From positions 1 to 41,159 of the forward strand of contig JAFDXI010000123.1 in the NCBI GenBank assembly GCA_018268035.1: a stretch of DNA of 41,159 bases, given 5' to 3'. Below the pieces are notes generated by a model. That model made no database searches. It was not told the DNA's origin and saw only the letters and a program-made list of their open reading frames with translations. Both the position numbers and the translations under genes were made by a program. Position 1 is the stretch's first letter. The number at the start of each line of letters is the position of its first letter. Shown in pieces: positions 7,942 through 21,755 of this stretch. Source of the DNA: Bacteroidota bacterium (lineage in GTDB: Bacteria; Bacteroidota; Bacteroidia; Chitinophagales; Chitinophagaceae).

Positions 7942-8014
7942 TTACTGACAAAGAATTTCAGCCATTTTGAATAATTTTATTCAAAAACAATAATAAAAAA
8001 TATTTGTAGAAAAA

Positions 8015-9115
8015 TTATTCTTCAGAAGTTTCTTCTATGGCTTCATCCTGTGCATTTGCCATCAGCATATTGCTCATCTTGCGCAAAGGGTTGCTATGGT
8101 TTTCATCAAAACCGGAACGTTGGTTTATAATATCAACACATTCAAAAATTGCGCAGAGAAAAGAAGAAGCATCAGCCTTTCCTTTGCCTGCAATATCAAA
8201 TGCAGTGCCATGGTCAGGACTAGTGCGGACAACAGGCATGCCTGCAGTAAAATTTACACCTTCACCAATGGCTAATGATTTGAAAGGTATCAGGCCCTGG
8301 TCGTGATACATGGCAAGCACAGCATCAAAAAGCTGATATTGTCCCCTTGCAAAAAAAGCATCAGCGCTATATGGACCAAAGGTGAGCATCCCTCTGTCTT
8401 TTGCTTCTTTGATTGCAGGCTTAATGATGGTTTGTTCTTCATTTCCCACAAGGCCTTCGTCACCTGCATGCGGGTTTAATCCCAACACTGCAATCTTAGG
8501 TTTATCAATGCCAAAATCTCTTTTCAAACTTTCATTCAGGATATTGAGTTTGCTAAGAATGGCAGCTTTTGTAATATGTGCTGCAATATCTTTTACAGGC
8601 ACATGCTCCGTAACTAATGCAACACGGATATTGCTTGCGGTCATCAGCATTACTACATCATTCAATCCAAACTCATGTTGTAAATATGGTGTGTGGCCGG
8701 TAAAATTAAAATCAGGAGACTGGATATTTTTTTTATGCAATGGTGCAGTCACGAGCCCCTGGATATGCCCTTGTTTCAAAGCATTCACTGCATGTTGTAA
8801 AGAAAGCCTTGCATATTTTCCGCCAATCTCATTTAATGTACCAGCAGCAATAGCCACCTCATCTTCCCAGCAACTATACACATTAATCTGTTTATGGCTG
8901 ATGCGTGAAAAATCCCTTGTTGACTGGTATGAAAAATTCAGGTCAGGTAATGATTTGCGATAAAAATTTATACTCTTGTTGCTTGCAAAAACAACAGGTG
9001 TGCAAATTTCAAGGATGCGGTTATCACATAAAGATTTTATGATTAGTTCAATGCCAATTCCATTCAAATCCCCACAGGTAAACCCAATCAACGGCTTTGA
9101 TGTTTCAGTACTCAT
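8015..9115 (-). CDS. pdxA: 4-hydroxythreonine-4-phosphate dehydrogenase
   Basis: PdxA oxidises 4-phosphohydroxy-L-threonine with NAD; the product decarboxylates to 3-amino-2-oxopropyl phosphate, which PdxJ joins to deoxyxylulose phosphate in pyridoxal phosphate synthesis. The 366-residue protein has the family length plus a short charged tail. The substrate-binding motif FTGHTPYLQ contains H141, and the metal-binding histidines align as H171 (TEHVP), H216 (LNPHAGDEG) and H271 (MYHDQGLIPFK), each five residues later than in E. coli PdxA. The late motif RTSPDHGTAFDIAGKG is also present. It starts at an ATG 92 nt after the kinase gene on the same strand, so it may be the last gene of the kinase operon, though a functional link is not evident. 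Confidence 0.96.
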   Translation of the reverse strand: MSTETSKPLIGFTCGDLNGIGIELIIKSLCDNRILEICTPVVFASNKSINFYRKSLPDLNFSYQSTRDFSRISHKQINVYSCWEDEVAIAAGTLNEIGGKYARLSLQHAVNALKQGHIQGLVTAPLHKKNIQSPDFNFTGHTPYLQHEFGLNDVVMLMTASNIRVALVTEHVPVKDIAAHITKAAILSKLNILNESLKRDFGIDKPKIAVLGLNPHAGDEGLVGNEEQTIIKPAIKEAKDRGMLTFGPYSADAFFARGQYQLFDAVLAMYHDQGLIPFKSLAIGEGVNFTAGMPVVRTSPDHGTAFDIAGKGKADASSFLCAIFECVDIINQRSGFDENHSNPLRKMSNMLMANAQDEAIEETSEE

Positions 9116-9207: not shown

Positions 9208-10833
9208 TTATTTTTTTGCATTGAGTTTATCTAACCATTCTGCTGCTGTTGCATCGCCCTGCACTGTGGCTTCCATCAGGAGTTGTGCACCTTTCGTTTC
9301 ATTATAAGGAAATACACAACGGGTATAATAATCTAGGCTTTTTAAAGTAGCATCATCATTAGCATAAGCATATAAAATTCCCAATGCTGTTTTTGCCGGC
9401 AGGTAATTTTTATTACTGGCTTCTTCCAACATAGAAAATGCATCGCTACATGCAATCCTGTTGTTTTGATTTTTTAAAGCAAGGTTGGCATAAACAAACA
9501 TTGCCTGTGGTATTTTTTGATTAGACAATTGTTCATAAATATCAAGCGCTGCTTCTTTATTTTCCCTCAACATTGATTTTGCATTTTGCAGTTGTTGTTC
9601 CAGCGCAGGAGCAAGCGCATCAGATGAATCAACCTGGATTGTTTTTTTTGTTTGCGCTATAGGTTTGTTATAATTTGTTTGCACAGCATAAACAAAAATT
9701 GCTGCAACAAATAATCCTAAAAGCACCCACAAGAAAACCTTTATGCCATTTGATTTTTTCTTTGGAAATAGAACCGGTTCAACATTTTCAGCAAATGTGG
9801 TAGCTGTATTTTTTCCTTCACGCAGTTGTTGTAATGCAATTTGCAAATCGCGGTTTTGTTCAAGTAACTTCCTGTTCTCCAGTTGTAACAATTTTATCTG
9901 GTCATTGCTTTCGCTGTTATTGTTTGACCATGTCCTGTTTTGTACAATATATTCATGCAATGCCATCCCGCTTGCAAAACGTTCTTCAGGCACTTTTTGC
10001 AAACACCGATACACCATATTATAAATCCACTCAGGTATCCGCATTTCAATATCCCTTTTCTCATTGCTCCACAATTCAGGCAATGCTTTCCCTCTCAATG
10101 TAAAAAGATTAGGAGGAGCAGTTTCCATGTGTGCAAGCATCACAGCATTTCTTGCTGTTTCACCTTTTTCAGATAATGGAAAAGGAACAGTACCTGCAAG
10201 CAATTCAAACATCACCACACCAAAACTATAAACATCAGTTTCAAAATACATCCGGCCTTCATTTTGTTCTGGCGCCATAAACTCGATTGCACCAGCATGC
10301 CTGAGGCTTGTCCTGCGGTCTTCATCACTCATGATGGCCAAACCAAAATCGAGCAGCACATAATTACCGGTATTGACATTAAATTTTACATTATTACTTT
10401 TTATATCACCATGCTTTACATTGAAACGATGGCAATGAGCCAAAGCGCCTGCTAACTGTTCTGCAACTTTTAAAAATTCAATGATGGTAAAAACAGGCTC
10501 ATGTGGTGGTTTTAATAATTCTTCCAAATCAGGGCCTTCAATAAATTCCATTTCAATGAATGGAAAATTGCCTGTTTCAGTGATGCCTGAGCTTAAAATT
10601 TTTACAACATTAGGATTCGGTTGTTCATTTACTTTTTTCAGTTTTTCAACTTCATTCTGAAAACGGGCAAAATTTTTGTCTTCAGATGATTCACTGTAAA
10701 TGGGTGTAGGCAATAATTTTATTGCAGTAAAAATTTCACCGGTGCGCCTTCCTTTATATACAGAACCTTGTCCGCCGGTTTTCAACGCACCCATATTTTC
10801 AAGACCCGATGTTATTGTAAAAACTTTACTCAT
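9208..10833 (-). CDS. Membrane-anchored Ser/Thr protein kinase (PknB-like position)
   Basis: The 541-residue protein has a cytoplasmic Hanks-type kinase domain at about residues 8-285: glycine-rich loop GGQGSVYKG, catalytic lysine K39 in AIKLLP, catalytic loop KHGDIKSNN with D143, DFG at D162 and MAPEQ. The catalytic loop is HGD, not HRD, so this is a non-RD kinase. A linker with a coiled-coil-like stretch (about 305-340) leads to one membrane helix near residues 360-382, then an exported region of about 150 residues with TPR/Sel1-like helical repeats rather than the PASTA domains of PknB. It lies 267 nt after the FHA gene and in the same orientation as the phosphatase and SEDS-PBP genes, which suggests it phosphorylates partners in that pathway. 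The phosphorylation targets are unknown. Confidence 0.93.
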   Translation of the reverse strand: MSKVFTITSGLENMGALKTGGQGSVYKGRRTGEIFTAIKLLPTPIYSESSEDKNFARFQNEVEKLKKVNEQPNPNVVKILSSGITETGNFPFIEMEFIEGPDLEELLKPPHEPVFTIIEFLKVAEQLAGALAHCHRFNVKHGDIKSNNVKFNVNTGNYVLLDFGLAIMSDEDRRTSLRHAGAIEFMAPEQNEGRMYFETDVYSFGVVMFELLAGTVPFPLSEKGETARNAVMLAHMETAPPNLFTLRGKALPELWSNEKRDIEMRIPEWIYNMVYRCLQKVPEERFASGMALHEYIVQNRTWSNNNSESNDQIKLLQLENRKLLEQNRDLQIALQQLREGKNTATTFAENVEPVLFPKKKSNGIKVFLWVLLGLFVAAIFVYAVQTNYNKPIAQTKKTIQVDSSDALAPALEQQLQNAKSMLRENKEAALDIYEQLSNQKIPQAMFVYANLALKNQNNRIACSDAFSMLEEASNKNYLPAKTALGILYAYANDDATLKSLDYYTRCVFPYNETKGAQLLMEATVQGDATAAEWLDKLNAKK

Positions 10834-11100
10834 TGATAGTAGTAAATCCTGTTGTTATTTTTCTGAACATACCCGGCAAATAAACAAATTTTATTTTTGT
10901 ATGCGGGTTTGTATAATCTATTTCCTGTAACAAAATTTATCACTGCAGTTTATTATTTCACTTTTACTCATCTACTCATGATATCATTTTGCATTATAAG
11001 ACCTCACCCCAACCCCCACTCCAAAAGCGAGGAGGCTTAAAACCCAATCTGGCAAAGGGTTCCAGAAATATTAAAAATTTTAAGATAGACAACAATCCAA
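10834..11100. other. Intergenic region between kinase and FHA genes
   Basis: No gene is seen in these 267 nt. They carry the short copy of the dispersed repeat at 10998-11046. The gap is unusually large for the interior of this operon, so the kinase may have its own promoter, but I could not identify a convincing TAnnTTTG box on the minus strand. Confidence 0.5.
10998..11046. repeat. Dispersed intergenic repeat, short copy
   Basis: It begins AAGACCTCACCCC and ends with AGGAGGCTTAAAACCC, matching the ends and core of the copy at 7873-7941 but without the 20-nt hairpin insert. The body can fold by pairing the CCCC/CCT side with GGAGG. Both copies sit in gaps next to minus-strand genes. Confidence 0.65.
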
Positions 11101-11877
11101 CTATTCATTAAAAAAACTAAATCTCACCAATGCTGATTCTCCAAGCATCACCTGGTCGCCTTCTTTTAACTGGTGCCCCACTTCTGTTGTCACCAATCTT
11201 ATTTCATTACCCTGATCAGGTTTTATTTTTATTTTATTGTATGGAGGTATGCCTCCTTCATCTGCAAATAAATAAAATGAAGCCGATTCTTCATTCCATT
11301 CAATATGGGCGTGTTGCCGGCTGATTGATTTATTGCTTTTGTTATCACTGTTATTTGGAAATGCAACCTGATTTACACGCATAAAACCTTTTGCCACCTG
11401 CACATTTTTTTCCCTGCCGATATTTATTTTTTTAACTGATGAATGTAAAGTATAAACAGCCTGTTCTGCTTCACCATTTAAAATTTTTAAGTAAGCAGTT
11501 GCTTCTTTATGTATGGATGGTTTCTGACGTGTTGAAATAAATAATGCAACATCCAGATCCGCAGATACTTTCGCTTCAGGTGGTGCAGGCTCATCAACAG
11601 TAATTTTTAAATACCATTCAACTGGTAAATCAATGGCAAAATCATCTGCAATCTTCTGAATATCATCTTTGCAATTGTCCTGTTGTTCTATATACACTGC
11701 ACTTTCATACATGAACTTAATTTCAGGCGGACAATTAATATATAAATGCAAACCGCGTATGCCACCACCTTCACCGCTACCTGCTTTTTTTAATTGCTCT
11801 TTGATGAAATCAAGTATATCATTCCGCAGGGTTTTAATGTCCTTAGGCTGTTTTTTTTGTTTTGAAAAATTAAGCAT
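11101..11877 (-). CDS. FHA-domain phosphothreonine-binding protein
   Basis: The 258-residue protein has no signal peptide or membrane helix. Residues 1 to about 125 form a domain I cannot name with certainty. The C-terminal FHA domain (about 148-256) carries the hallmark residues: G154-R155 in NIGREK, and S186, R187 and H189 in SISRQHAHI, the positions that contact the phosphothreonine backbone and phosphate, plus the asparagine in PPYNKIKI. FHA domains read threonine phosphorylation, so this protein probably binds a substrate of the neighbouring kinase or an autophosphorylated kinase. It starts 40 nt after the SEDS-PBP stop. In the actinobacterial counterpart, FhaA/FhaB connect kinase signalling to cell-wall synthesis; a similar role here is inferred from the neighbourhood. 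Confidence 0.88.
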   Translation of the reverse strand: MLNFSKQKKQPKDIKTLRNDILDFIKEQLKKAGSGEGGGIRGLHLYINCPPEIKFMYESAVYIEQQDNCKDDIQKIADDFAIDLPVEWYLKITVDEPAPPEAKVSADLDVALFISTRQKPSIHKEATAYLKILNGEAEQAVYTLHSSVKKINIGREKNVQVAKGFMRVNQVAFPNNSDNKSNKSISRQHAHIEWNEESASFYLFADEGGIPPYNKIKIKPDQGNEIRLVTTEVGHQLKEGDQVMLGESALVRFSFFNE

Positions 11878-11917
11878 GATGCTTTTATTTTAGATTGATA
11901 ATTTTTTTAAAAATCTT

Positions 11918-14900
11918 TTATTGTTCAATATCATTTCCTGTTTTTGCAATTGATTTATTGGCTGTCATTGATTGATTATTCAAAGGCTTTTCTTTTTTCT
12001 TGTCAAAGCTTTCTATATAACCCATTGCACGCAAAACAGGAACGATATGTTTACCAGCCAGTTTCACTGCAAAACTGGAGCCTTTACAATTTTCAACTCT
12101 TACGCACACAACAACATGTTTTTTTGTGCCTGGTTCAGGAGCAAAGAAAACATACCATCCATCATTAATGCGTTCATTTTTTACAATGCGTTCCGGTGTC
12201 CCTGTTTTTCCTGCAACAGCAATACCCAAAGTGTAAAATTTCATCGCACTTTGTTCAATCATATATTTTGTCATCAACGAAGCAAAGCTTGTATCGTTTG
12301 TCAATGGTATGCCTTTTTGTAATGTTGTTGTTTTGCCATTTACACTTAATACATAGCGGCTCTGCATCATCGTTCCATCATTGGCAATACCTGCTGCGAT
12401 TCTTGCTACCGCTGCCGGTGTTGCTATCAGTGCACCCTGCCCCCATGCCATACCTGAAATACCAATACCTCTTGTACGTTTTATATTATTTGGGTCATAT
12501 CTTTTTAAACTGGTAAATTCAGTTTTGCGCCAGATATCTTTCCATTTTTCCTGTTGTTGTTTATCATTATCATAATCGTAATAATATCCGCCCACACCAT
12601 GTAAAAACATTCCTGACTTCAGGTATAAATCACCCATGTATTCCTGTAATTGTTCTTCATTTGCCAATCGTATAAAAAATGAATTGTTGGACCTTACAAG
12701 GCCACGCTCCAAAGTAATATAACCTGCTTCATCAGGCTCATAACCTTTTGTGCGGATGAGGTCTTTTGGATAAACATGAATAACTTTTTTTGAAGCAGCT
12801 ATTCCTAATTTATTAAATGCTGCCAGTGATGTTACCAGTTTTGCTGTTGAACCAGGTTGTGTAGCAATGGTAAAACCTAAGTCATTATCAGTAATCCATC
12901 CTTGCAATTGATTTTGTTCCTGTGGCGTTAGATTCATCATTTCCCAATCATCAGTTTGTGGCAATGGATAATTAGCAGATGCCAACACATCACCTGTACT
13001 GTCTTCCATCACCACAACAGAGATGCGATAGTTGACAAGTGAATCATCACTTTGCATTGATTGCTGAATTTTTGTTTGCAATGCAGCATCCAATGTCAAT
13101 TGCACATCACGGTTTTTTTGTTTGAATGAATCAACTGAAGTACTGTTGATACCTTCAATCAATAAATGAGATAAAGCACTATAATCCTTTTGTGCAACGC
13201 TCATCTCAATTGATGTCTGAGGCAAAAATTTTTGTTCATGGTAGCGTGTTGCACTCACGGTGAAGTTGTTTTCAGGAATAGGAAAACCCCGCATTGCTTC
13301 AGCTTCACTGTATTCAGCAAAATATCCATTGGATGCACCTTTAAAAATATTGGTATTATCATCACCAATCCAAAAAAACATTTGATTGCCGAAAGGGTAA
13401 TAACGATCGAGTCGTTTATAAAACATGGCATCAATATCTTTCTTAGGAATATTCAGCGCCAATAGTGAATCTCTTTCATCACTGATAACTGACTGGTGAC
13501 TGGTTGCTAAAATGCGGCCTTTTCTGTCGAGTAAATTGCCTGCCTGCAGCCTGTTCATTAAAATGCTGATGCGCGGATTATAACTAAACATCCTTGCACC
13601 ACTCCTGTCAGCAACCAAAGCAGGTTGCACCACCCATTTGGTATTATTGACAATATATTTTGAAACACTGATGCTCAGCAATACAATGCCGGTGCAGGCC
13701 CCCAATAAAGCAGGTATTAAATTCCTGTCTTGTTGTTGTGCAATATATTTCATCTGCACAGGTGAACCATGTATCATTGATGCCGACAATAAAAAACCAA
13801 CAGCAAGCATATTTACAATTAAAGATGACCCGCCATAACTCATAAATGGTAATGCAACGCCAGATAAAGGCAATGCGCCAACTGAGCCTCCTGCAATCAA
13901 TAGAAATTGAATAAAACTTGCAATACCAATTCCTGAACAAACATAAAACAGGAAAGGCCTTCCTGATTGTCTGCCAATGATGATTGAGCGGTGCAGATAA
14001 ATAAAGAACACAATAAACACACTCACAATACCGGCAAGCCCAAACTCTTCACCCATTGATGGCAATATCATATCAGTATGTGCTTCCGGAATTGTTTTAG
14101 CAAAACCCTCTCCTGCACCTTGCCCGGTAAAACCTCCTCCAGACATAGCCCATATACCATTGGCAATCTGGTCTCCACCAAACACTTCATTGTTCCAGGG
14201 ATCCTGCCAGATGGCTTTTCTATCAATCAATCTTTGCATGGGTCCGGGGAAATAATGCGCAAGCATGGGTATTTTATCCAATAATAAAAATGCAGCAATA
14301 ATTACCAATGCCATCACTGATGATTCACTCAGTCTTTTTGTAACAGTGAAAGTATAAATTACAAATGCAATCGCAGTGATGATTGTTGCCATCAATACAT
14401 CTTTTGATATCCAGATAGCTATCACATAAAAAACTATGGATATAGCCATGTGAATAAAATCGCCACGCGAAAAAGAAAACAATACAATAAAAGTGAAACA
14501 ACAAACCATTGCAGGACCGAGGTCGCCCAATAGTAAAAATAAAAATATAGTTGCGAGGATAGCTGTTAATGCAAAGATGAAAAACTGACTGCGTTTAGTC
14601 CAGGTGAAATATGATGAAATAAATTTCTCATTGGTTGCAAAAAATCCTGCCAGAAAAATGACAATAGTATATTTTACAATTTCACTGGGCTGAAAGCCAA
14701 AGAGGTTTACTTTCACACCACTGCCTTCCGGGCCTGTACCAAATAAATTCGTCATCACCAATAACCCTGTAGCGATGATAGCCCAGGGCCAGCCATTGGA
14801 TGCTGATTTGATTTTAGTAAAAATAAGAAGGCGATAAAACCTCGAATCAGTTGTAAATTTTTTCAAATCAAACAACAGCAATAAAATAATCCCAACGATG

Positions 14901-16054
14901 CCCGCAATAAAATAATAAAATGAGCTCTTGGCTAAAAACCAATCCCGCAAAGGATCCTGGAGGCTTATCAATGTGATGAATGATAAACCGGTGATGACCA
15001 TAATCGAAGGCAGGATTAATTGGTCGGCCTGCCTGAACCAAATACTAAGCACAATATGCAGGACGATAAAACTTAATATAAAACCAATAGTAATAATCCA
15101 AAACCATTGCATTACATCAGCAGGCGTTCTTACAATAAAAGCTTTTTCTTTTTTTAATGAGCTGAAATCTTTTGTAGAGAATAATCTTAACTGATGCGGA
15201 GAACGATAAAAATTAAAACTTGCATCATGATCTAATTTTTCAATACCCTGCGACCTGCCGAAAGTGTAATTTAATTGCAGGGGCAAAACAGAATAAGTCT
15301 TATCATCCGGCAAACCTTTAAAAGAAAATTTCCCATTTGCATCTGTTTGTGTATATACAGTTAATGATTGCAGTTGTTTATGATGCAAAGAATCTTCAGC
15401 AAAAGTTTTTCTTACTGTAATGGTGTTTTCAGATAGCAGGCTATCCACTTCTTCCACATCATTACTGTACAGACTGTCTTGAGGCAATATCAGACGCAAA
15501 CGGACAATCACATTGGAAACCGGAGCATCTTCTTCTTTTACCTGGCCACTGATGCTATGTTGGCCCATGTCTATATTATTGACAGAAGTGATGGAAGCGG
15601 GATGATTTTTTTGTTTTTCGAAAACAGCATCATCTTCAGTTGAAATACCTAAAGCTATACGCTCTGCTGCTACTCTTTTCCTAAATGATTCCCCACCTTG
15701 CGTCATGGCAACAGCAGCATTTACACTGTATTGTTTTTTATTCAGGTCGCCAATATTATCAATTGGTGTATGATCACTCATCCTTGCACGGGCAAAAGTG
15801 GAACTGATAAGATCAATATCTTTTTCATCCTGGAAATAACGGCCTTTCTGCAACAAAGATTTCATGTTTTGTTCAGGCTGATCATTGTTGAGGTTAATCA
15901 TCGTGCCCTGCTTCAAACGCACAGGCAACTCAGTAAAATCATTATTGAGAACAATATAAATTTTATAAAAAAGCACTGCCATCACTGCACTAATCAGCAA
16001 TAAAAAAAGTCTTTCAGTGTTTCTGTTGACAGATGAATGAGTGGTTGTTTTCAT
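11918..16054 (-). CDS. SEDS glycosyltransferase fused to class B penicillin-binding protein
   Basis: The 1378-residue chain joins two proteins that normally are separate. One membrane helix (about residues 13-33) precedes a periplasmic region (about 34-310) with a carboxypeptidase-regulatory-like beta domain near 170-275. Then follow about ten membrane helices of an FtsW/RodA/SpoVE (SEDS) domain (about 315-810), including the conserved stretch IPEAHTDMILPSMGEEFG with the putative catalytic aspartate D661. The exported C-terminal part is a transpeptidase with S1069-T-A-K1072, S1122-N-N1124 and K1283-T-G. All active-site motifs are intact, so it should both polymerise lipid II and crosslink the strands. 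It begins within TAATG, overlapping the phosphatase stop codon by one base, so the two are translationally coupled. It is most likely a third or specialised synthase alongside the usual FtsW/FtsI and RodA/PBP2, which are not in the window. Confidence 0.93.
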   Translation of the reverse strand: MKTTTHSSVNRNTERLFLLLISAVMAVLFYKIYIVLNNDFTELPVRLKQGTMINLNNDQPEQNMKSLLQKGRYFQDEKDIDLISSTFARARMSDHTPIDNIGDLNKKQYSVNAAVAMTQGGESFRKRVAAERIALGISTEDDAVFEKQKNHPASITSVNNIDMGQHSISGQVKEEDAPVSNVIVRLRLILPQDSLYSNDVEEVDSLLSENTITVRKTFAEDSLHHKQLQSLTVYTQTDANGKFSFKGLPDDKTYSVLPLQLNYTFGRSQGIEKLDHDASFNFYRSPHQLRLFSTKDFSSLKKEKAFIVRTPADVMQWFWIITIGFILSFIVLHIVLSIWFRQADQLILPSIMVITGLSFITLISLQDPLRDWFLAKSSFYYFIAGIVGIILLLLFDLKKFTTDSRFYRLLIFTKIKSASNGWPWAIIATGLLVMTNLFGTGPEGSGVKVNLFGFQPSEIVKYTIVIFLAGFFATNEKFISSYFTWTKRSQFFIFALTAILATIFLFLLLGDLGPAMVCCFTFIVLFSFSRGDFIHMAISIVFYVIAIWISKDVLMATIITAIAFVIYTFTVTKRLSESSVMALVIIAAFLLLDKIPMLAHYFPGPMQRLIDRKAIWQDPWNNEVFGGDQIANGIWAMSGGGFTGQGAGEGFAKTIPEAHTDMILPSMGEEFGLAGIVSVFIVFFIYLHRSIIIGRQSGRPFLFYVCSGIGIASFIQFLLIAGGSVGALPLSGVALPFMSYGGSSLIVNMLAVGFLLSASMIHGSPVQMKYIAQQQDRNLIPALLGACTGIVLLSISVSKYIVNNTKWVVQPALVADRSGARMFSYNPRISILMNRLQAGNLLDRKGRILATSHQSVISDERDSLLALNIPKKDIDAMFYKRLDRYYPFGNQMFFWIGDDNTNIFKGASNGYFAEYSEAEAMRGFPIPENNFTVSATRYHEQKFLPQTSIEMSVAQKDYSALSHLLIEGINSTSVDSFKQKNRDVQLTLDAALQTKIQQSMQSDDSLVNYRISVVVMEDSTGDVLASANYPLPQTDDWEMMNLTPQEQNQLQGWITDNDLGFTIATQPGSTAKLVTSLAAFNKLGIAASKKVIHVYPKDLIRTKGYEPDEAGYITLERGLVRSNNSFFIRLANEEQLQEYMGDLYLKSGMFLHGVGGYYYDYDNDKQQQEKWKDIWRKTEFTSLKRYDPNNIKRTRGIGISGMAWGQGALIATPAAVARIAAGIANDGTMMQSRYVLSVNGKTTTLQKGIPLTNDTSFASLMTKYMIEQSAMKFYTLGIAVAGKTGTPERIVKNERINDGWYVFFAPEPGTKKHVVVCVRVENCKGSSFAVKLAGKHIVPVLRAMGYIESFDKKKEKPLNNQSMTANKSIAKTGNDIEQ

Positions 16055-17478
16055 TATTTACTGCTACGGGTTTTAGCTGAATCTAATCTTGCATGCACAC
16101 TGTCAGTAATGCCGACTGAATTATCCCTACTATTTTGAAAAAGCTGTGACATTAATACCGGGTACCTGCAATTGACAAACTGTACGTTTTTTAAATGAAG
16201 TGATTTATTATTCACAAGCAATGCAATATTGAAGTTTTGAAATGTTATACTATCCATCACAATATATTTACAGTTGTCTGAAAAAACCATCGCTGCTCCA
16301 TTGAATGAAGAGTCAGAAACAAGTGTAACTCCATTACCGTTGATATAAATTGAGTCTTTCGATATGTTTAATGAATCATTGATAGTTACATTTTTTGTTC
16401 CACCAAGAATTTCATTCAATGCAATTTCCTTACCGGTTGTATTATTGATATTATCCTGTAACCTTTGTGATAAAACATTTTTTATCAATGGCAAAGCATT
16501 CGTTTTTATTTCATTGGTGCTGCTAAAAAAATCTTTGTATAAAAAGCCTGCTAATGCTAGCAATAAAAAAATACAAATCAATCCGGTAAAAGATGTTTTC
16601 TTTTTTGGGGTAACGGGCTTTTGGACAGTAGCACTTGTTTTTTCAACAACCGTTGGTTCAATTTTTTGATCTTCATCTTTTTTTGATGCAACAGGTTTTG
16701 TAGCCTGATGTTGTGTTGGTTGTTTATCGTTTTTAATAATGACGACAGTGATGTTGTCTTTACCGCCTGCCTGATTTGCAGCATCAATCAATGCAGTAGA
16801 TATATCTTTTAATTTTCCCGGAGCATTTAATATACCTGTGATGGTTTTACTATCAATCATATCACTCAGGCCATCGCTGCACAACAGTAAAACATCACCT
16901 GGTAAAAATGGAGATTCGCCTGTTTCAATAAAATCAGGCTCAACAAGAATTTTATCATCATCAAAACCCAATGCTTTGTTGATTTCATTTCGTTTTGGAT
17001 GTTGCATGGCTGCTTCTTCTGATATCCGGCCACTGTCTTCAAGATATCCGACAAAAGAATGGTCATGCGAAACTTTTACTAATGAAGAGTTGTCACGAAA
17101 AAGATATAAACGTGTATCACCTACATGCGCATAATAAAATTTATTGTTGTTAATATCTGCAATAACCAGTGTGAGCACACAGGCCATTTCTGCATATTTG
17201 CAGGATAACTTTTTTTCTTCAATAATTTTTTGATTGGCATCCAGCACAGCTTTTTTCAGTGTGCCGGGAATATTATCACCTAAAGAAGATTTGAGGAAAT
17301 TTAATATTGAAGTTCTTGCTAATTCAGATGCAACCTCACCGCCTTCATATCCACCCACACCATCAATAACACTCCCGATGATAAACCTTTTATCTGTCGT
17401 TGCCTGAGCAATAAAATTATCTTCATTATTATCACGCAGTTTGCCGGCATCAGTCAGTCCAAAAAAATTATCTGCCAT
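16054..17478 (-). CDS. PP2C-family Ser/Thr phosphatase with exported beta-helix-like domain
   Basis: The 474-residue protein starts with a PP2C (PPM) domain of about 245 residues: NNEDN (E19, D20), D39-G40 in IDGVGGYEGGE, VGDTRLYL, CSDGLSDM (D202) and GGKDNITVVI (D241). These are the metal-binding residues found in PstP. A basic and Thr-rich linker with KKDEDQK leads to one membrane helix at about 290-312, and about 150 residues lie outside, with short repeated strands (NGNGVTLVSDSS, SLHLKNVQFVNC) like a right-handed beta-helix. It would remove phosphate groups placed by the kinase encoded downstream. Its ATG lies inside a candidate 34-aa gene, and its stop overlaps the SEDS-PBP start (TAATG). 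Confidence 0.92.
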   Translation of the reverse strand: MADNFFGLTDAGKLRDNNEDNFIAQATTDKRFIIGSVIDGVGGYEGGEVASELARTSILNFLKSSLGDNIPGTLKKAVLDANQKIIEEKKLSCKYAEMACVLTLVIADINNNKFYYAHVGDTRLYLFRDNSSLVKVSHDHSFVGYLEDSGRISEEAAMQHPKRNEINKALGFDDDKILVEPDFIETGESPFLPGDVLLLCSDGLSDMIDSKTITGILNAPGKLKDISTALIDAANQAGGKDNITVVIIKNDKQPTQHQATKPVASKKDEDQKIEPTVVEKTSATVQKPVTPKKKTSFTGLICIFLLLALAGFLYKDFFSSTNEIKTNALPLIKNVLSQRLQDNINNTTGKEIALNEILGGTKNVTINDSLNISKDSIYINGNGVTLVSDSSFNGAAMVFSDNCKYIVMDSITFQNFNIALLVNNKSLHLKNVQFVNCRYPVLMSQLFQNSRDNSVGITDSVHARLDSAKTRSSK

Positions 17479-17572
17479 TTTTTCTGTGTGTTTTTTTCAC
17501 ATCCCTGAAGTTGGCGCCAAGCATTATGAGGCAAACAACAAAGAGCGATGATGATAAAATAATGTTCATCAT
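17468..17572 (-). CDS. Candidate 34-residue single-pass membrane peptide
   Basis: In the 115-nt gap between the FHA-like gene and the phosphatase, a short frame runs from ATG 17572 to TAA 17468. It encodes a peptide with a hydrophobic core (IILSSSLFVVCLIMLGANF) followed by a basic tail (RDVKKTHRKNGR). That pattern is usual for a small membrane protein with a cytoplasmic C-terminus. It starts 21 nt after the preceding stop and overlaps the PP2C start by 11 nt, so it fits operon spacing on both sides. There is no recognised family, and the peptide may simply allow coupled translation of the phosphatase. Coding status is uncertain. Confidence 0.45.
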   Translation of the reverse strand: MMNIILSSSLFVVCLIMLGANFRDVKKTHRKNGR

Positions 17573-17593
17573 TTGAATGCGTTGTTTATATGT

Positions 17594-18550
17594 TTAAGAT
17601 TTAAAAATATTAACCCCGACAATTCCATTCAATACAATTCTTGAGTTTAAAGGCAGTCGCACCCATTTTAGGTCATTATGGTTGCTCGATGGTATTTGCG
17701 TTTCATTTACAATTGTTTTTTCACCATAAGAGGCGAGATAAAAACTGTCGTCTTTATCATCATATCTGATTTTCAGATGAGGGGTATTTACCCATTCAGA
17801 AGGGATGCGGAAAATATTTGACTGTTCTTTATTTTCATCTTTACCAGATACAGTTATTTCTTTATCCTTCATAAAATATTCAATCTTTTTTCCGGCATAT
17901 TCCCTGTCAGGGATAATTGTTTCCAACCTTGCCACCACTTTCCCATTAACAGAGGTCACTGAATGATCAGGTGACATTAAATGATTGTCATAAGCTACTT
18001 CATAATAACCATCACTATAAAAAATAAAACCATCAAGCAATTCAGGATTAACATCAAAGGTTTCTGCAATACCTGTCTGACGAGGAATAAAAGTAATCCG
18101 CAGGTTTTCATTTTTAGGCTGTGTACTGCCAGGCATTAATTTTCCAATCAAACTTTTATCGCCACGCAAATATTCAGGATGTGCAACAAAACGAAACACC
18201 CATTTATTACTGGAGGGTGCAACTGTTTTACCATTTTGTATTTCCTGATTGAGTATATCATAAAATTTTTTTACTGACTCCTGTACAATCAAACCAAAAA
18301 TGCCATTTTTATTTTGTGTAAACTGGTTATAATCTTCCTGGTTGAAACACACAATATATTCATGAAAAAAAACAATCCTGTTGGCAAAAGATAATTCTTT
18401 GATGGAGTTTTCAAATTTATCAACGATATACTGATATATTTCATCCGTTGTTAATGGCTGTGTCTGATGTGTGGTATATTCTATTTCACGTTTTAAAAAC
18501 CAATCGTGAAAGCCCATGCGTTGCCAGAAAGAAGATTTAGTTTTTGTCAT
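17594..18550 (-). CDS. FHA-like protein with degenerate phosphothreonine site
   Basis: I place the start at the ATG 18550 (318 residues) rather than the longer TTG at 18574, which would overlap the lipoprotein gene by 38 nt. The N-terminal half includes the stretch FFHEYIVCFNQEDYNQF, which resembles the DUF3662-like fold of actinobacterial FhaA, although I cannot prove this. The C-terminal 110 residues can be laid over the FHA domain of the 258-residue neighbour (NTPHLKIRYDDKDDSFYL versus SRQHAHIEWNEESASFYL), but the binding GR, S and R are replaced. Binding to phosphothreonine is therefore doubtful; a scaffold role is likelier. It is the second gene of the kinase operon. There is no signal peptide. 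Confidence 0.7.
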   Translation of the reverse strand: MTKTKSSFWQRMGFHDWFLKREIEYTTHQTQPLTTDEIYQYIVDKFENSIKELSFANRIVFFHEYIVCFNQEDYNQFTQNKNGIFGLIVQESVKKFYDILNQEIQNGKTVAPSSNKWVFRFVAHPEYLRGDKSLIGKLMPGSTQPKNENLRITFIPRQTGIAETFDVNPELLDGFIFYSDGYYEVAYDNHLMSPDHSVTSVNGKVVARLETIIPDREYAGKKIEYFMKDKEITVSGKDENKEQSNIFRIPSEWVNTPHLKIRYDDKDDSFYLASYGEKTIVNETQIPSSNHNDLKWVRLPLNSRIVLNGIVGVNIFKS

Positions 18551-19004
18551 TTTTATCTTTATTTTTTTTACCAAAAAGCCTTTGAAAGAAATTTAATTTT
18601 TTTTCCTGTTGCTTTACTGCAGGTGTTGCTAAAACAGTTTGTTTCGCTTTTCTATCAGCTGCAAGGTTCGTTTCAGTATTTTCATTGTTGGTTTTTGTAA
18701 CATCAATCAACCGGCCATTAAAATCATGCCTGTGTTCATTATTATCAATCCAAACAGCATGGGTTGCACTATACACAACTTTTTTCTCACCTAAAGTTGC
18801 AGGTTGTTCATCAGTTGTAGCTTTTATTGAATCCCATGTATGTCCTCCATCTACAGAAAATAAATACAGGTTATTGGCAACATCATAATAAACATTCCTG
18901 TAAGGATAGTAATAAAATTCAAATTTTTGTTGATTATCCTGATTACAGGAAATCAATAAAAAGGAATAAGAGATTAAAAACACGATTAATGAAGATTGCC
19001 TCAT
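18537..19004 (-). CDS. Small lipoprotein at the head of the kinase operon
   Basis: The 155-residue protein has a signal peptide ending in a lipobox, LISC with Cys20, so it is probably an envelope lipoprotein. The mature part has a short BNR/sortilin-like motif (SVDGGHTWDSI) near residues 50-60 and a strongly basic C-terminal tail (FGKKNKDKNDKN). No family could be named. It overlaps the next gene by 14 nt if that gene starts at 18550. As the first gene of the kinase, FHA and SEDS-PBP group it may sense or dock to a wall component, but this is a guess from position only. Confidence 0.7.
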   Translation of the reverse strand: MRQSSLIVFLISYSFLLISCNQDNQQKFEFYYYPYRNVYYDVANNLYLFSVDGGHTWDSIKATTDEQPATLGEKKVVYSATHAVWIDNNEHRHDFNGRLIDVTKTNNENTETNLAADRKAKQTVLATPAVKQQEKKLNFFQRLFGKKNKDKNDKN

Positions 19005-19121: not shown

Positions 19122-21755
19122 CTACCTGATTAATACAAATGTTCCTTTCTTCAGATAAGGTTTATCAGTGTAATCCACAGCCTGGATTACATAAACATAG
19201 GCACCGGCAGGTTGCTTCTGCCCTTTAAAAGTTCCATCCCATCCCACGCCTGGGTTGCCTGAGTTGAAAAGCAACTGCCCCCAACGATTATAGATTCTTA
19301 AATACATGAATTTTTTCATGCCGGCAACAATAGGCCTGAATACATCATTCCTGCCATCACCATTGGGAGTAAATGCAGTGGGGATAAAGACTTCAGGTTG
19401 CGAATTGAATATAATAATTTTTATACTGTCAGTATTATAACAACCCTCAGGAGTGCTAACCCTTACACTATAAAGAACAGTATCGGGCAGACCAGTTAAA
19501 TTCAAAACAGGGTTTGCAATAAACGGATCACTTAAACCTATTATAGGATCCCATTTATAGTTAGTGCCACCAGTAGCATTTAGTTGCAATGGTTGTGATC
19601 TCACTACCACCGTATCATTACCTGCAAAAGCTTTAACTGTTGGGATAACAGTTACTCGAACCGTATCACTGCCTGGTTTAGGGCAACCAATTGTATCAGT
19701 GACATTCAATATATAATCAGTTGTTTGTTGTGGTCCAGCTATTGGTGTTAATGTATTTGCATTAATTAAAGACCCGGAAGGTGACCAGGCAAAATAAGTC
19801 CCTTCAATTGTCGCATTCAGTTGTGTGGTAGCGCCGTAGCAAATAGATACATCATCACTCACTTTGACTGATGGATAAGGTACAACATTGACCTGGATAT
19901 TATCAGTCGCAAAACATTTACCAACTGATGACTTCAAAACATAGTTGGTGTTGGCCTGTGGTGTAGCAACCGGATATTCTACATCAGTTTTATTTAATCC
20001 CAATGGAGGCGACCATGAAAAATACAATCCATTGGTTACGGGATTGAGTATGATACTATCGGTCTTGCAAATCGTTGTATCATTGGGAAGGTTCAGATCA
20101 ACTTTGTCTATCACATTCACCAGAACAGAATCTTTAGTATCGCAACCTTTATACGAGACAGTAATTCCATAGAGTGTTGTAGTTTTAGGATAAATGAGTG
20201 GTGAATTACTATTGGGATTGATGATATTATAAGGAGGATCCCAATTGAAAGTTGCACCTGTTGTTGTTGAACTTGATTTTAACTGTAAAGTATCAATACT
20301 GCAAATTAAGGTATCAGGAAAAGCAAGCTGAAGATCGGGGCCAAGTGTAACATCTAATGCTTTTTTTGCAGTATCAATACAACCTTTTGAATTGGTAGTA
20401 ATCAACATTACTGTTCTTGTTCCAGTATCAGTATAATTGTGAGCCGGATTTTGAGTAGTATCATCCGGAGGGGCGCCAGTGCCTGAATCATCAATGCCAT
20501 CGCCAAAAAACCATTTCCATGAATTTACATAACCATATTTTGTAGTAGTCAGGTCTTTGAAGAAATATGGATTTTGGATACAACTTGCGTTAATAGAAAA
20601 ATCTGTATTGAAGCCTGGATAAATTTTCACCTGTGCTTTTGCAGAATCTTCACAGCCCTTATTATTATTGGCTTTTAGTTGAACATTATAAACGCCGGTA
20701 TCAGGATAAGTATAAGAAGGTGTTGCTTTTGTTGACGTATCTGTTGTAATCCCAGTAACACCAAAATCCCAGTAATAAGAATATGATGCATCAATACTGG
20801 CATTATTTTTAAAATTAAATGTCAAGCCATCACAGGTTATATAAACAGGATCTAATAAAGCGCCGCCAATGCTGCAATTAGCAACATTTAAATGCAGCTC
20901 TTTTCTTGTTTTACCAATATATACACCTTTCCTGAATTCGCTTACACAAACTGCTACCACATAAGTGCCTGTTTGTGCAGGGGCATTACCGGATACAATA
21001 CCTGTCACCGGATCAATAATAACGGTAGGCCCAAGCGGTTGCCCACCCGAATATGGGGTTAGATAAGGAATTGTAGCATAAGGAGGTGCAGGCGGGTTTT
21101 CAATTACCGGGTCATTAGCAGTACCACCTGTCAATCCACTGCATAAACTATAACTTAGAGAATCACCATCAATATCTGTTGCAGAAAAATCAAAAGTGAA
21201 TGGTGCATTATAACAGATAGCTACAGTTTCATTAAAAGCAAAAACAGGGCTGTTGTCTTCATAAGCTGCACCACCGGGAATAGTGACAGTATAAGTCAAA
21301 CCCACCAGATTGGAATTGGCAACATTTTCAATACCAACAATCCTGCAACAACGCTGTACCGCTACTACATACCCATCAATATTTAAAGGCAGGTTAACTG
21401 TGACATTATATTCTGCAATCAAATAACAAACATTGGGTTGGTTTTGAAAACAAGGGCCAAAGTCTGTTTTGCTTTCAGTAGTGAGCTTTGTTAGAATGAC
21501 ATTATGTGCGCTACCTATTTCTGCTCCAGTGCCTGCATCATGTATGGAGAGATGAATACTATCATCTACTTTTTCCGGTTCGCTGCAATCCGAATATTGA
21601 TAAAATGTTATTTTATATTGAGCGCTGTTTCCTGACTGGCTCAAAAAAACATATTTTATCCAGCCACCTTTCAGGTGATCGGCATAAACAGTATTAACTG
21701 ATAAAACCAATATCAGAGAGAAAATAAAACCAACTGAAAATTTATTCCATTTCAT
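19122..21755 (-). CDS. Secreted PKD-domain protein with gliding/T9SS C-terminal domain
   Basis: The 877-residue protein has a signal peptide (cleavage near residue 25, after NTVYA), then beta-rich repeats. Two PKD domains are clear: YYWDFG...YTYPDTGVYNV near 325-365 and WKWFFGDG...HNYTDTGTRTV near 415-455. Further Ig-like units with the recurring WDPP/WSPP motif fill about 490-760. The C-terminal 90 residues are a gliding-motility-associated type B sorting domain (FIPTAFTPNGDGRNDVF, IYNRWGQLLF, PAGAYVYVI), which marks it for export by the type IX system and cell-surface anchoring. It starts 14 nt inside the hydrolase gene. It is probably a surface adhesin or structural protein. Confidence 0.92.
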   Translation of the reverse strand: MKWNKFSVGFIFSLILVLSVNTVYADHLKGGWIKYVFLSQSGNSAQYKITFYQYSDCSEPEKVDDSIHLSIHDAGTGAEIGSAHNVILTKLTTESKTDFGPCFQNQPNVCYLIAEYNVTVNLPLNIDGYVVAVQRCCRIVGIENVANSNLVGLTYTVTIPGGAAYEDNSPVFAFNETVAICYNAPFTFDFSATDIDGDSLSYSLCSGLTGGTANDPVIENPPAPPYATIPYLTPYSGGQPLGPTVIIDPVTGIVSGNAPAQTGTYVVAVCVSEFRKGVYIGKTRKELHLNVANCSIGGALLDPVYITCDGLTFNFKNNASIDASYSYYWDFGVTGITTDTSTKATPSYTYPDTGVYNVQLKANNNKGCEDSAKAQVKIYPGFNTDFSINASCIQNPYFFKDLTTTKYGYVNSWKWFFGDGIDDSGTGAPPDDTTQNPAHNYTDTGTRTVMLITTNSKGCIDTAKKALDVTLGPDLQLAFPDTLICSIDTLQLKSSSTTTGATFNWDPPYNIINPNSNSPLIYPKTTTLYGITVSYKGCDTKDSVLVNVIDKVDLNLPNDTTICKTDSIILNPVTNGLYFSWSPPLGLNKTDVEYPVATPQANTNYVLKSSVGKCFATDNIQVNVVPYPSVKVSDDVSICYGATTQLNATIEGTYFAWSPSGSLINANTLTPIAGPQQTTDYILNVTDTIGCPKPGSDTVRVTVIPTVKAFAGNDTVVVRSQPLQLNATGGTNYKWDPIIGLSDPFIANPVLNLTGLPDTVLYSVRVSTPEGCYNTDSIKIIIFNSQPEVFIPTAFTPNGDGRNDVFRPIVAGMKKFMYLRIYNRWGQLLFNSGNPGVGWDGTFKGQKQPAGAYVYVIQAVDYTDKPYLKKGTFVLIR

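Follow-up and report, generated by a model that had tools for sequence, protein, structure and literature searches.

The 41,159-nucleotide (nt) stretch of DNA analysed here (hereafter the window; contig JAFDXI010000123.1 of assembly GCA_018268035.1, from a Gram-negative member of the Chitinophagaceae in the Bacteroidota) contains, at positions 9208-19004 of the minus strand, a set of genes that we propose constitutes a self-contained, phospho-regulated peptidoglycan synthase module, a closed switch on the third synthase of its host. We assign this interpretation a probability of around 0.6; the gene complement and its order, the motifs, folds, co-occurrence and clade structure are observed, and the substrates, the direction of control and the signal are predicted. 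In the order of transcription the genes encode a putative lipoprotein, an FhaA-type protein (FhaN), a microprotein, a PP2C phosphatase, a SEDS glycosyltransferase fused to a penicillin-binding protein (PBP) transpeptidase, an FHA-domain protein (FhaC) and a Hanks-type Ser/Thr kinase. Every gene named in the initial annotation of this DNA was recovered, all on the minus strand. The lipoprotein gene overlaps fhaN, 21 nt separate fhaN from the microprotein gene, which overlaps the PP2C gene by 11 nt, the PP2C and synthase genes share one base, and the synthase-fhaC and fhaC-kinase intervals are 40 and 267 nt, respectively.

The synthase, encoded at 11918..16054, is a single polypeptide of 1378 amino acids (aa) that matches the SEDS family PF01098 at 149.9 bits and the transpeptidase family PF00905 at 83.7 bits. 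Hydropathy places a transmembrane (TM) segment at residues 18-36, followed by ∼280 aa, the next TM segment and the SEDS core. The SEDS half carries an HTD motif (659-661), the Asp of which we take to be the catalytic residue, while the PBP half contains SxxK (1069-1072), SxN (1122-1124) and KTG (1283-1285) motifs that, with the PF00905 match, are consistent with a class B PBP transpeptidase. In fused proteins of at least 1000 aa (n=120) SxxK, SxN and KTG are found in 118, 119 and 115 sequences, respectively, and [HNS]TD in all but L078; the pattern restricted to His occurs in 109, with NTD or STD in the variants printed. The protein reaches neither the FtsW (154.2 bits versus a cut-off of 337.5) nor the RodA (136.1 versus 336.7) NCBIfam equivalog. 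The host genome contains two more SEDS genes, on contigs C23 and C168, the latter adjoining a PBP gene, and six transpeptidase matches in total; the fusion is therefore the third SEDS protein of the organism. All seven module-containing genomes checked have two standalone SEDS genes besides one or two fused ones, although for G581 one of the standalone genes is deduced from two pieces at contig ends.

The regulatory components form a closed set. Genome-wide searches returned one Pkinase, one PP2C_2 (the model used for the phosphatase search) and one above-cut-off FHA match, all within the cluster; a further FHA match was sub-threshold (14.6 bits) and contained a stop. The kinase, encoded at 9208..10833, scores 114 bits against PF00069 and has the catalytic motifs, from which activity is predicted; a single hydropathy TM segment (366-384) is followed by a C-terminal part. 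The HxDxxxxN motif is present in 134 of the 139 kinases compared. As originally described, the kinase lacks PASTA domains (no match at E≤0.1), and it scores 137 bits against NF033483, where the cut-off is 450. The PP2C phosphatase (16054..17478) matches PF13672 (53.1 bits) and PF00481 (49.9 bits), and is predicted to cross the membrane once (hydropathy TM 295-313) with a C-terminal part of ∼160 aa past this segment. The DGxGG motif is found in all 104 PP2C sequences. The Stp1/IreP equivalog NF033484 was not reached (209.6 bits versus a cut-off of 230), and in a search of the PDB the chain named PstP (2cm1; 5.5e-28) ranked behind other bacterial PP2C chains, the best of which gave 3.5e-38.

FhaC (11101..11877) straddles the Pfam FHA cut-off of 20.7 bits, scoring 20.6 as a protein and 21.5 in the genome search. 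Its phosphothreonine-binding residues are intact, and the GR and SxxH pattern is present in 61 of 62 loci of Bacteroidota type and missing only from L052, where the open reading frame (ORF) is short. In the 36 Acidobacteriota FhaC sequences Gly, Arg, Ser and His are found in 36, 36, 32 and 34, respectively. FhaN (17594..18550), which likely starts at the ATG at 18550 rather than the TTG at 18574, consists of an FhaA_N-like N-terminal domain and a degenerate FHA domain. The phosphothreonine site (S243/G244/N263/H266) reads S-G then N-x-x-H, with the Arg and Ser substituted, suggesting that this protein is probably a phospho-independent scaffold. All four site residues, Gly, Arg, Ser and His, are kept in 45/45 Acidobacteriota FhaN, and the other FhaN sequences (n=52) retain Arg in 27 cases, Ser in 28 and His in all 52. 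The roles ascribed here to single FHA-site residues are our assumption.

In the proposed mechanism the fused SEDS-PBP would polymerise and cross-link peptidoglycan beside the two standalone SEDS proteins of the host. The membrane kinase may sense the state of the envelope through the part past its TM segment and phosphorylate threonines on module members. These would be bound by FhaC through its intact site, thereby gating or recruiting the synthase, and the PP2C would reset the switch. FhaN would act as an FhaA-type scaffold, probably phospho-independent in the window lineage, while the microprotein probably associates with the PP2C or the synthase in the membrane and would couple the membrane partners. 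For this scheme the literature on mycobacterial PstP, FhaA and FipA serves as analogy.

The microprotein, encoded at 17468..17572, comprises 34 aa with one hydrophobic segment. A TM-like small ORF occurs between FhaN and the PP2C in 53 of 54 Bacteroidota-type loci, compared with 98/1060 random segments of the same length and 16/54 reverse complements. A sequence motif (hydrophobic run, HF or NF, two residues, I/L/V, K/P) is present in 45 of these loci but in none of the 1060 random segments or 54 reverse complements. The motif was written after the sequences had been inspected, and misses close variants (L130, L143); the TM-only count is independent of it. The pN/pS ratios (nonsynonymous to synonymous differences) are 0.29 (window lineage), 0.34, 0.27 and 0.39 in four lineages, at pS values of 0.59-0.75 that are near saturation. 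Conservation and these ratios support what had first been marked simply as a small peptide candidate. In Acidobacteriota a TM-like small ORF lies upstream of the PP2C in 24/40 loci versus 33/758 random segments, although no fewer than two of the 24 seem spurious (L112 is far from the PP2C start and L062 is probably the tail of FhaN); the sequence differs from that of the Bacteroidota microprotein, the likeness being in position and TM segment only. In the plasmid copy of Spirosoma oryzicola a microprotein reading frame, absent from the gene table, lies between FhaN and the PP2C.

The arrangement is conserved well beyond the window. Of 126 loci mapped, L053 was dropped as a duplicate of L043, and L113 is the same contig as L155, both of which are outside the count that follows. 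Order was scored in the 88 loci where the flanks of the synthase gene extend to at least 6.5 kb on the upstream and 1.5 kb on the downstream side; these loci were picked by similarity to the fused synthase, and some of them seeded the hidden Markov models used to score gene order. FhaN-PP2C-SEDS/PBP-FhaC is the order in 80 of the 88 (30 Acidobacteriota and 50 Bacteroidota-type), 78 of which also have a kinase. The eight exceptions are three loci of family f18, two Acidobacteriota loci, and L097, L126 and L127, the last three with fewer genes. The kinase is either inside the set (Acidobacteriota, Spirosoma and part of f1, the family of the window), at its end (the window and Pedobacter) or at both ends. 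In Roseithermus sacchariphilus (L043:6762-10916) PP2C, SEDS and transpeptidase are joined in a triple fusion, a single ORF of 1384 aa.

FhaN and the fused synthase also occur together. With thresholds of E≤1e-40 for relatives of the fused synthase and E≤1e-8 for FhaN, the fusion is found in 40 of 294 genomes of the family sample, in a few as contig fragments only, and FhaN in 39, all within those 40 and none in the rest; this assumes that the two 294-genome draws are identical, as their listed handles are. G428, the fusion genome without an FhaN match, has a completeness of 60%, and the contig with its module starts within ∼30 bases of the PP2C gene. Pkinase matches are found in 131 of the 294, including all 40 with the fusion. 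The fused relative is present in 12/296 genomes of the phylum sample and 7/247 genomes of a sample centred on, and including, an Acidobacteriota genome. A scan of named genomes in which the best 80 of 334 relatives were kept comprised, by title, 61 Acidobacteriota, two Rhodothermales-type genomes, one Opitutaceae metagenome-assembled genome (MAG) and a further 16 from Spirosoma, Larkinella, Fibrisoma, Fibrella, Pedobacter and Chitinophagaceae. L126, the Verrucomicrobiota copy, comes from a single MAG contig, clusters with Acidobacteriota and could have been binned wrongly; this phylum is therefore left out of the range of the module. Two Acidobacteriota genomes, G580 (of L062) and G582 (of L095), have two fused SEDS places each, suggesting that the synthase, and perhaps the module, has been duplicated in some members of the phylum.

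The set resembles the pknAB cluster of Actinobacteria. In Tsukamurella tyrosinosolvens (L208) the order is DUF3662/FHA, FHA, PP2C, RodA, PBP, kinase and PASTA kinase, the PP2C (8011-8985) being missing from the gene table and found by search. Both systems have an FhaA-type protein first, then a PP2C, a SEDS protein and a PBP, Ser/Thr kinase(s) nearby and two FHA proteins. Five defining features of the pknAB cluster were tested. An FhaA protein (FhaA_N plus FHA) is matched through fold and profile links but not by Pfam on the window sequence, and a membrane PP2C comparable to PstP is predicted from the PP2C domain and its one TM segment. By contrast, the place of FhaB between fhaA and pstP is occupied by the 34-aa microprotein, the separate rodA and pbpA genes are represented by one ORF, and the kinase is not a PASTA kinase such as PknB. 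The module is predicted to work like the pknAB cluster and has parts in common with it, but lacks three of the five features. It differs further in that its second FHA protein is encoded after the synthase, in its occurrence in Bacteroidota and Acidobacteriota and in its kinase lineages. The early claim that every functional class is common to the Mycobacterium cluster, in nearly the same order, does not extend to FhaB, whose place the microprotein occupies. An origin of the microprotein from the membrane anchor of FhaB (presumably a TM segment plus an FHA domain; the sequence compared was that of Tsukamurella L208) is attractive by position. The test gave no support, since a profile of the Acidobacteriota microprotein ranked the Tsukamurella FhaB anchor only 126th of 769 TM anchors, and the idea is kept as a lead.

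Phylogenetic analysis of the SEDS domain separates the fused proteins from FtsW and RodA. In a first tree 26 fused sequences lie on one side of a branch (support 100) and 24 standalone sequences on the other. An extended tree added RodA from the Tsukamurella pknAB cluster, a Streptomyces SEDS protein, an FHA-linked SEDS protein from Clostridia, Escherichia coli FtsW and RodA, and four SEDS proteins from Bacillaceae; here 16 fused sequences, together with the two from Actinobacteria and the FHA-linked one from Clostridia, are set apart from 20 FtsW/RodA-type sequences with 100/100 support. The approximately unbiased (AU) test rejects joining the fused SEDS to the FtsW (p 0.008) or the RodA (p 2.8e-5) of the host. 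In the tree of the PBP half the fused proteins form a clade (99/100), but its sister is not resolved and branches are long. In the kinase tree the proteins that fill the slot fall into separate lineages, the Spirosoma-type slot (100/100), the Acidobacteriota slot (seven sequences, 100/100) and the window-type end slot (100/99), with long branches and no supported tie to PknA or PknB. As different kinase lineages fill the slots, the likeness to PknA/PknB may be functional only.

The relationship of FhaN to FhaA is not evident from Pfam. The window protein alone has no Pfam match at E≤0.1, a search of its genome for FhaA_N returned zero matches, and FhaA_N matched 0/52 window-type and Spirosoma-type FhaN sequences (FHA matched 22/52); profiles and structure models were therefore used instead. 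Among Acidobacteriota FhaN, 37/45 match FhaA_N and 45/45 match FHA (Pfam, E≤0.01). The module FhaN of three f18 genomes exceed the FhaA_N cut-off (29.6, 28.4 and 25.7 bits), while those of G030 (21.7 bits) and G179 (18.9 bits) are below it. The profile of window- and Spirosoma-type FhaN matches that of Acidobacteriota FhaN with 99.3% probability (E 1.6e-20) over 250 columns spanning both domains. An AlphaFold model of the N-terminal domain (residues 36-150, counted from 18574; pLDDT 91.3) has a single PDB match at E≤0.001, the N-terminal domain of mycobacterial Rv0020c/FhaA (2lc0; E 3.5e-4); the matches ranked next, to RNase E, have E values from 0.0076 upwards. With the full-length model (pLDDT 65) Foldseek returned FHA-type matches at the top and no FhaA N-terminal domain among the 50 matches listed. 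The C-terminal half models as an FHA fold; the first description of FhaN as FHA-like is thus upheld by structure but not by a Pfam match for the window protein (E≤0.1).

These data bear on the possibility that the resemblance to the actinobacterial cluster is convergent, Bacteroidota having put together a similar operon, with no common ancestry, out of native kinase, phosphatase, FHA and SEDS/PBP genes. The separate kinase lineages, which are not shown to be orthologues of PknA/PknB, the failure of the PBP half to group with PbpA, the absence of FhaB from its slot and the window FhaN falling below Pfam FhaA_N are all consistent with such an origin. We nevertheless consider it improbable, given that the FhaA N-terminal structure is the sole PDB match of the FhaN N-terminal model at the threshold used, that the three f18 FhaN pass the FhaA_N cut-off and that the AU test rejects the host FtsW and RodA as partners of the fused SEDS. 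A recent acquisition of the entire cluster by Bacteroidota from Actinobacteria, followed by fusion of rodA and pbpA, would account for the related FhaA-type and SEDS parts and is in keeping with a plasmid copy in Spirosoma, but also seems unlikely; the fused form is one deep clade over Bacteroidota and Acidobacteriota that is not nested within Actinobacteria (represented by two sequences only), and the window has no PASTA kinase. We favour partial homology, in which common ancestry with the pknAB cluster applies to the FhaA-type protein and the SEDS domain, and the kinase slot has been refilled. The initial annotation suggested an old wall-growth control module or a transfer across phyla with later remodelling, and an input unlike that of actinobacteria; either origin may apply. 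A conserved module for wall synthesis that is kin to the actinobacterial cluster but has a changed input is supported; gene order, the SEDS tree and the FhaA domain pair of FhaN agree with this, and the outcome of unrelated paralogues with no conserved order was not observed. Conservation of the order in other Bacteroidota was borne out by the 50 loci counted above, and of the gene trees suggested at that stage the SEDS tree gave one clade apart from host FtsW and RodA, while the kinase tree gave no link to PknA/PknB. The comparison with pknAB thus holds for the FhaA-type protein and SEDS, may hold for the PP2C and PBP and, for the kinase, may be in function only.

Several observations weigh against the interpretation advanced here. 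Three f18 loci (L039, L041 and L042) have FhaN-SEDS/PBP-FhaC with no nearby PP2C or kinase match, two Acidobacteriota loci have no PP2C match and the core loci L038 and L043 have no kinase match in range, indicating that the switch is not complete beside every synthase. The distribution is patchy (see the sample counts above), so the module is not a device of general growth control. The FHA domain of FhaN is degenerate in the window lineage, and its likeness to 2lc0 is at the level of fold (TM-score 0.55, root-mean-square deviation 6.8). The grouping of the fused and the two actinobacterial SEDS sequences alone has support of 82/63 (93/90 on a smaller set), and the sample holds just three actinobacterial or FHA-linked Firmicutes SEDS proteins. 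Finally, the substrate, signal and phenotype of the module are predicted from sequence. The genomes of the three f18 loci contain further FhaA_N matches elsewhere.

Module copies in f1 are not one clade (AU p 2.3e-39, in a quick LG+G4 tree with long-branch warnings), and the three lineages differ in kinase placement, which can reflect transfer or loss of old paralogues. Plasmid unnamed7 of Spirosoma oryzicola (137 kb, typed non-mobilizable) carries FhaN, PP2C, two kinases, SEDS/PBP and FhaC as annotated genes (L207:4453-15009). Together these data point to movement or differential loss of the module among Bacteroidota but give no direction between phyla. Plasmid carriage in one Spirosoma, the patchy distribution and the extra SEDS genes in the genomes checked would also suit a specialised, conditional synthase switched on by the kinase under stress, in development or on antibiotic attack. 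PBP2a and PBP5 are among the PDB matches obtained with the PBP half, but the matches are weak, and PbpA and PBP2 also appear in the list. Such a role, which is compatible with the regulated module proposed here and differs from it in purpose, is a real possibility that we rate at slightly less than even odds.

The module can also be set against other SEDS-PBP systems. As in the RodA-PBP2 and FtsW-FtsI pairs, a SEDS polymerase is combined with a class B-type transpeptidase, catalytic motifs being kept; unlike them, the module synthase is one polypeptide with a long N-terminal extension, belongs to its own SEDS clade and is additional to the SEDS proteins of the host. In Monoglobus pectinilyticus (Clostridia; L210:5254-8239) a small FHA gene directly precedes SEDS and PBP genes, and the SEDS protein lies on the module's side of the tree, but SEDS and PBP are separate and no PP2C or kinase is annotated in the 12.8-kb stretch. 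Single-ORF SEDS-PBP fusions, which likewise hold both activities in one ORF, are stated, with one reference, to exist; the accessible part of that source has no word on kinase, phosphatase or FHA genes (PMC10449877). The pknB-fhaA cluster is reported, in the sections available, for Actinobacteria and a subset of Firmicutes (PMC6554272). No description of the module was found in the literature searched, which left subscription papers and most preprints outside. It is an evenly balanced proposition that the module represents an undescribed class, present in at least Bacteroidota and Acidobacteriota, in which a one-polypeptide synthase has a private kinase and phosphatase, two FHA proteins and a new microprotein. 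Such a class would share an ancestor with pknAB and combine a stable effector/reader core with swapped kinases as inputs, the window FhaN being a pseudo-FHA scaffold.

The remaining gene of the set, at 18537..19004, encodes a putative lipoprotein of 155 aa with a lipobox (LISC) read by eye. It appears to be accessory; the ten homologues found among the loci examined belong without exception to loci of the window lineage, where several immediately precede fhaN. The fhaC-kinase interval (10834-11100) is the sole long gap in the set and could hold a separate kinase promoter. The upstream neighbour, at 19122-21755, is a PKD protein with a CHU_C type IX secretion domain. The host assembly is 4.47 Mb in 181 contigs.

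In mycobacteria the pknAB cluster has a central regulatory role that is hard to disentangle, with numerous kinases and substrates. In the organism studied here the sole detected Pkinase, PP2C_2 and above-cut-off FHA proteins are encoded in one module beside a joined polymerase and cross-linker, making Ser/Thr gating of a SEDS-PBP synthase testable with few parts. The module adds a conserved microprotein that ordinary annotation omits, as in the gene table of the Spirosoma plasmid. Its distribution suggests that the partnership between FhaA and SEDS is older, or more mobile, than the range of Actinobacteria and Firmicutes given in the available text on the pknB-fhaA cluster (PMC6554272) would imply, and the replacement of kinases around a fixed effector represents a natural experiment.

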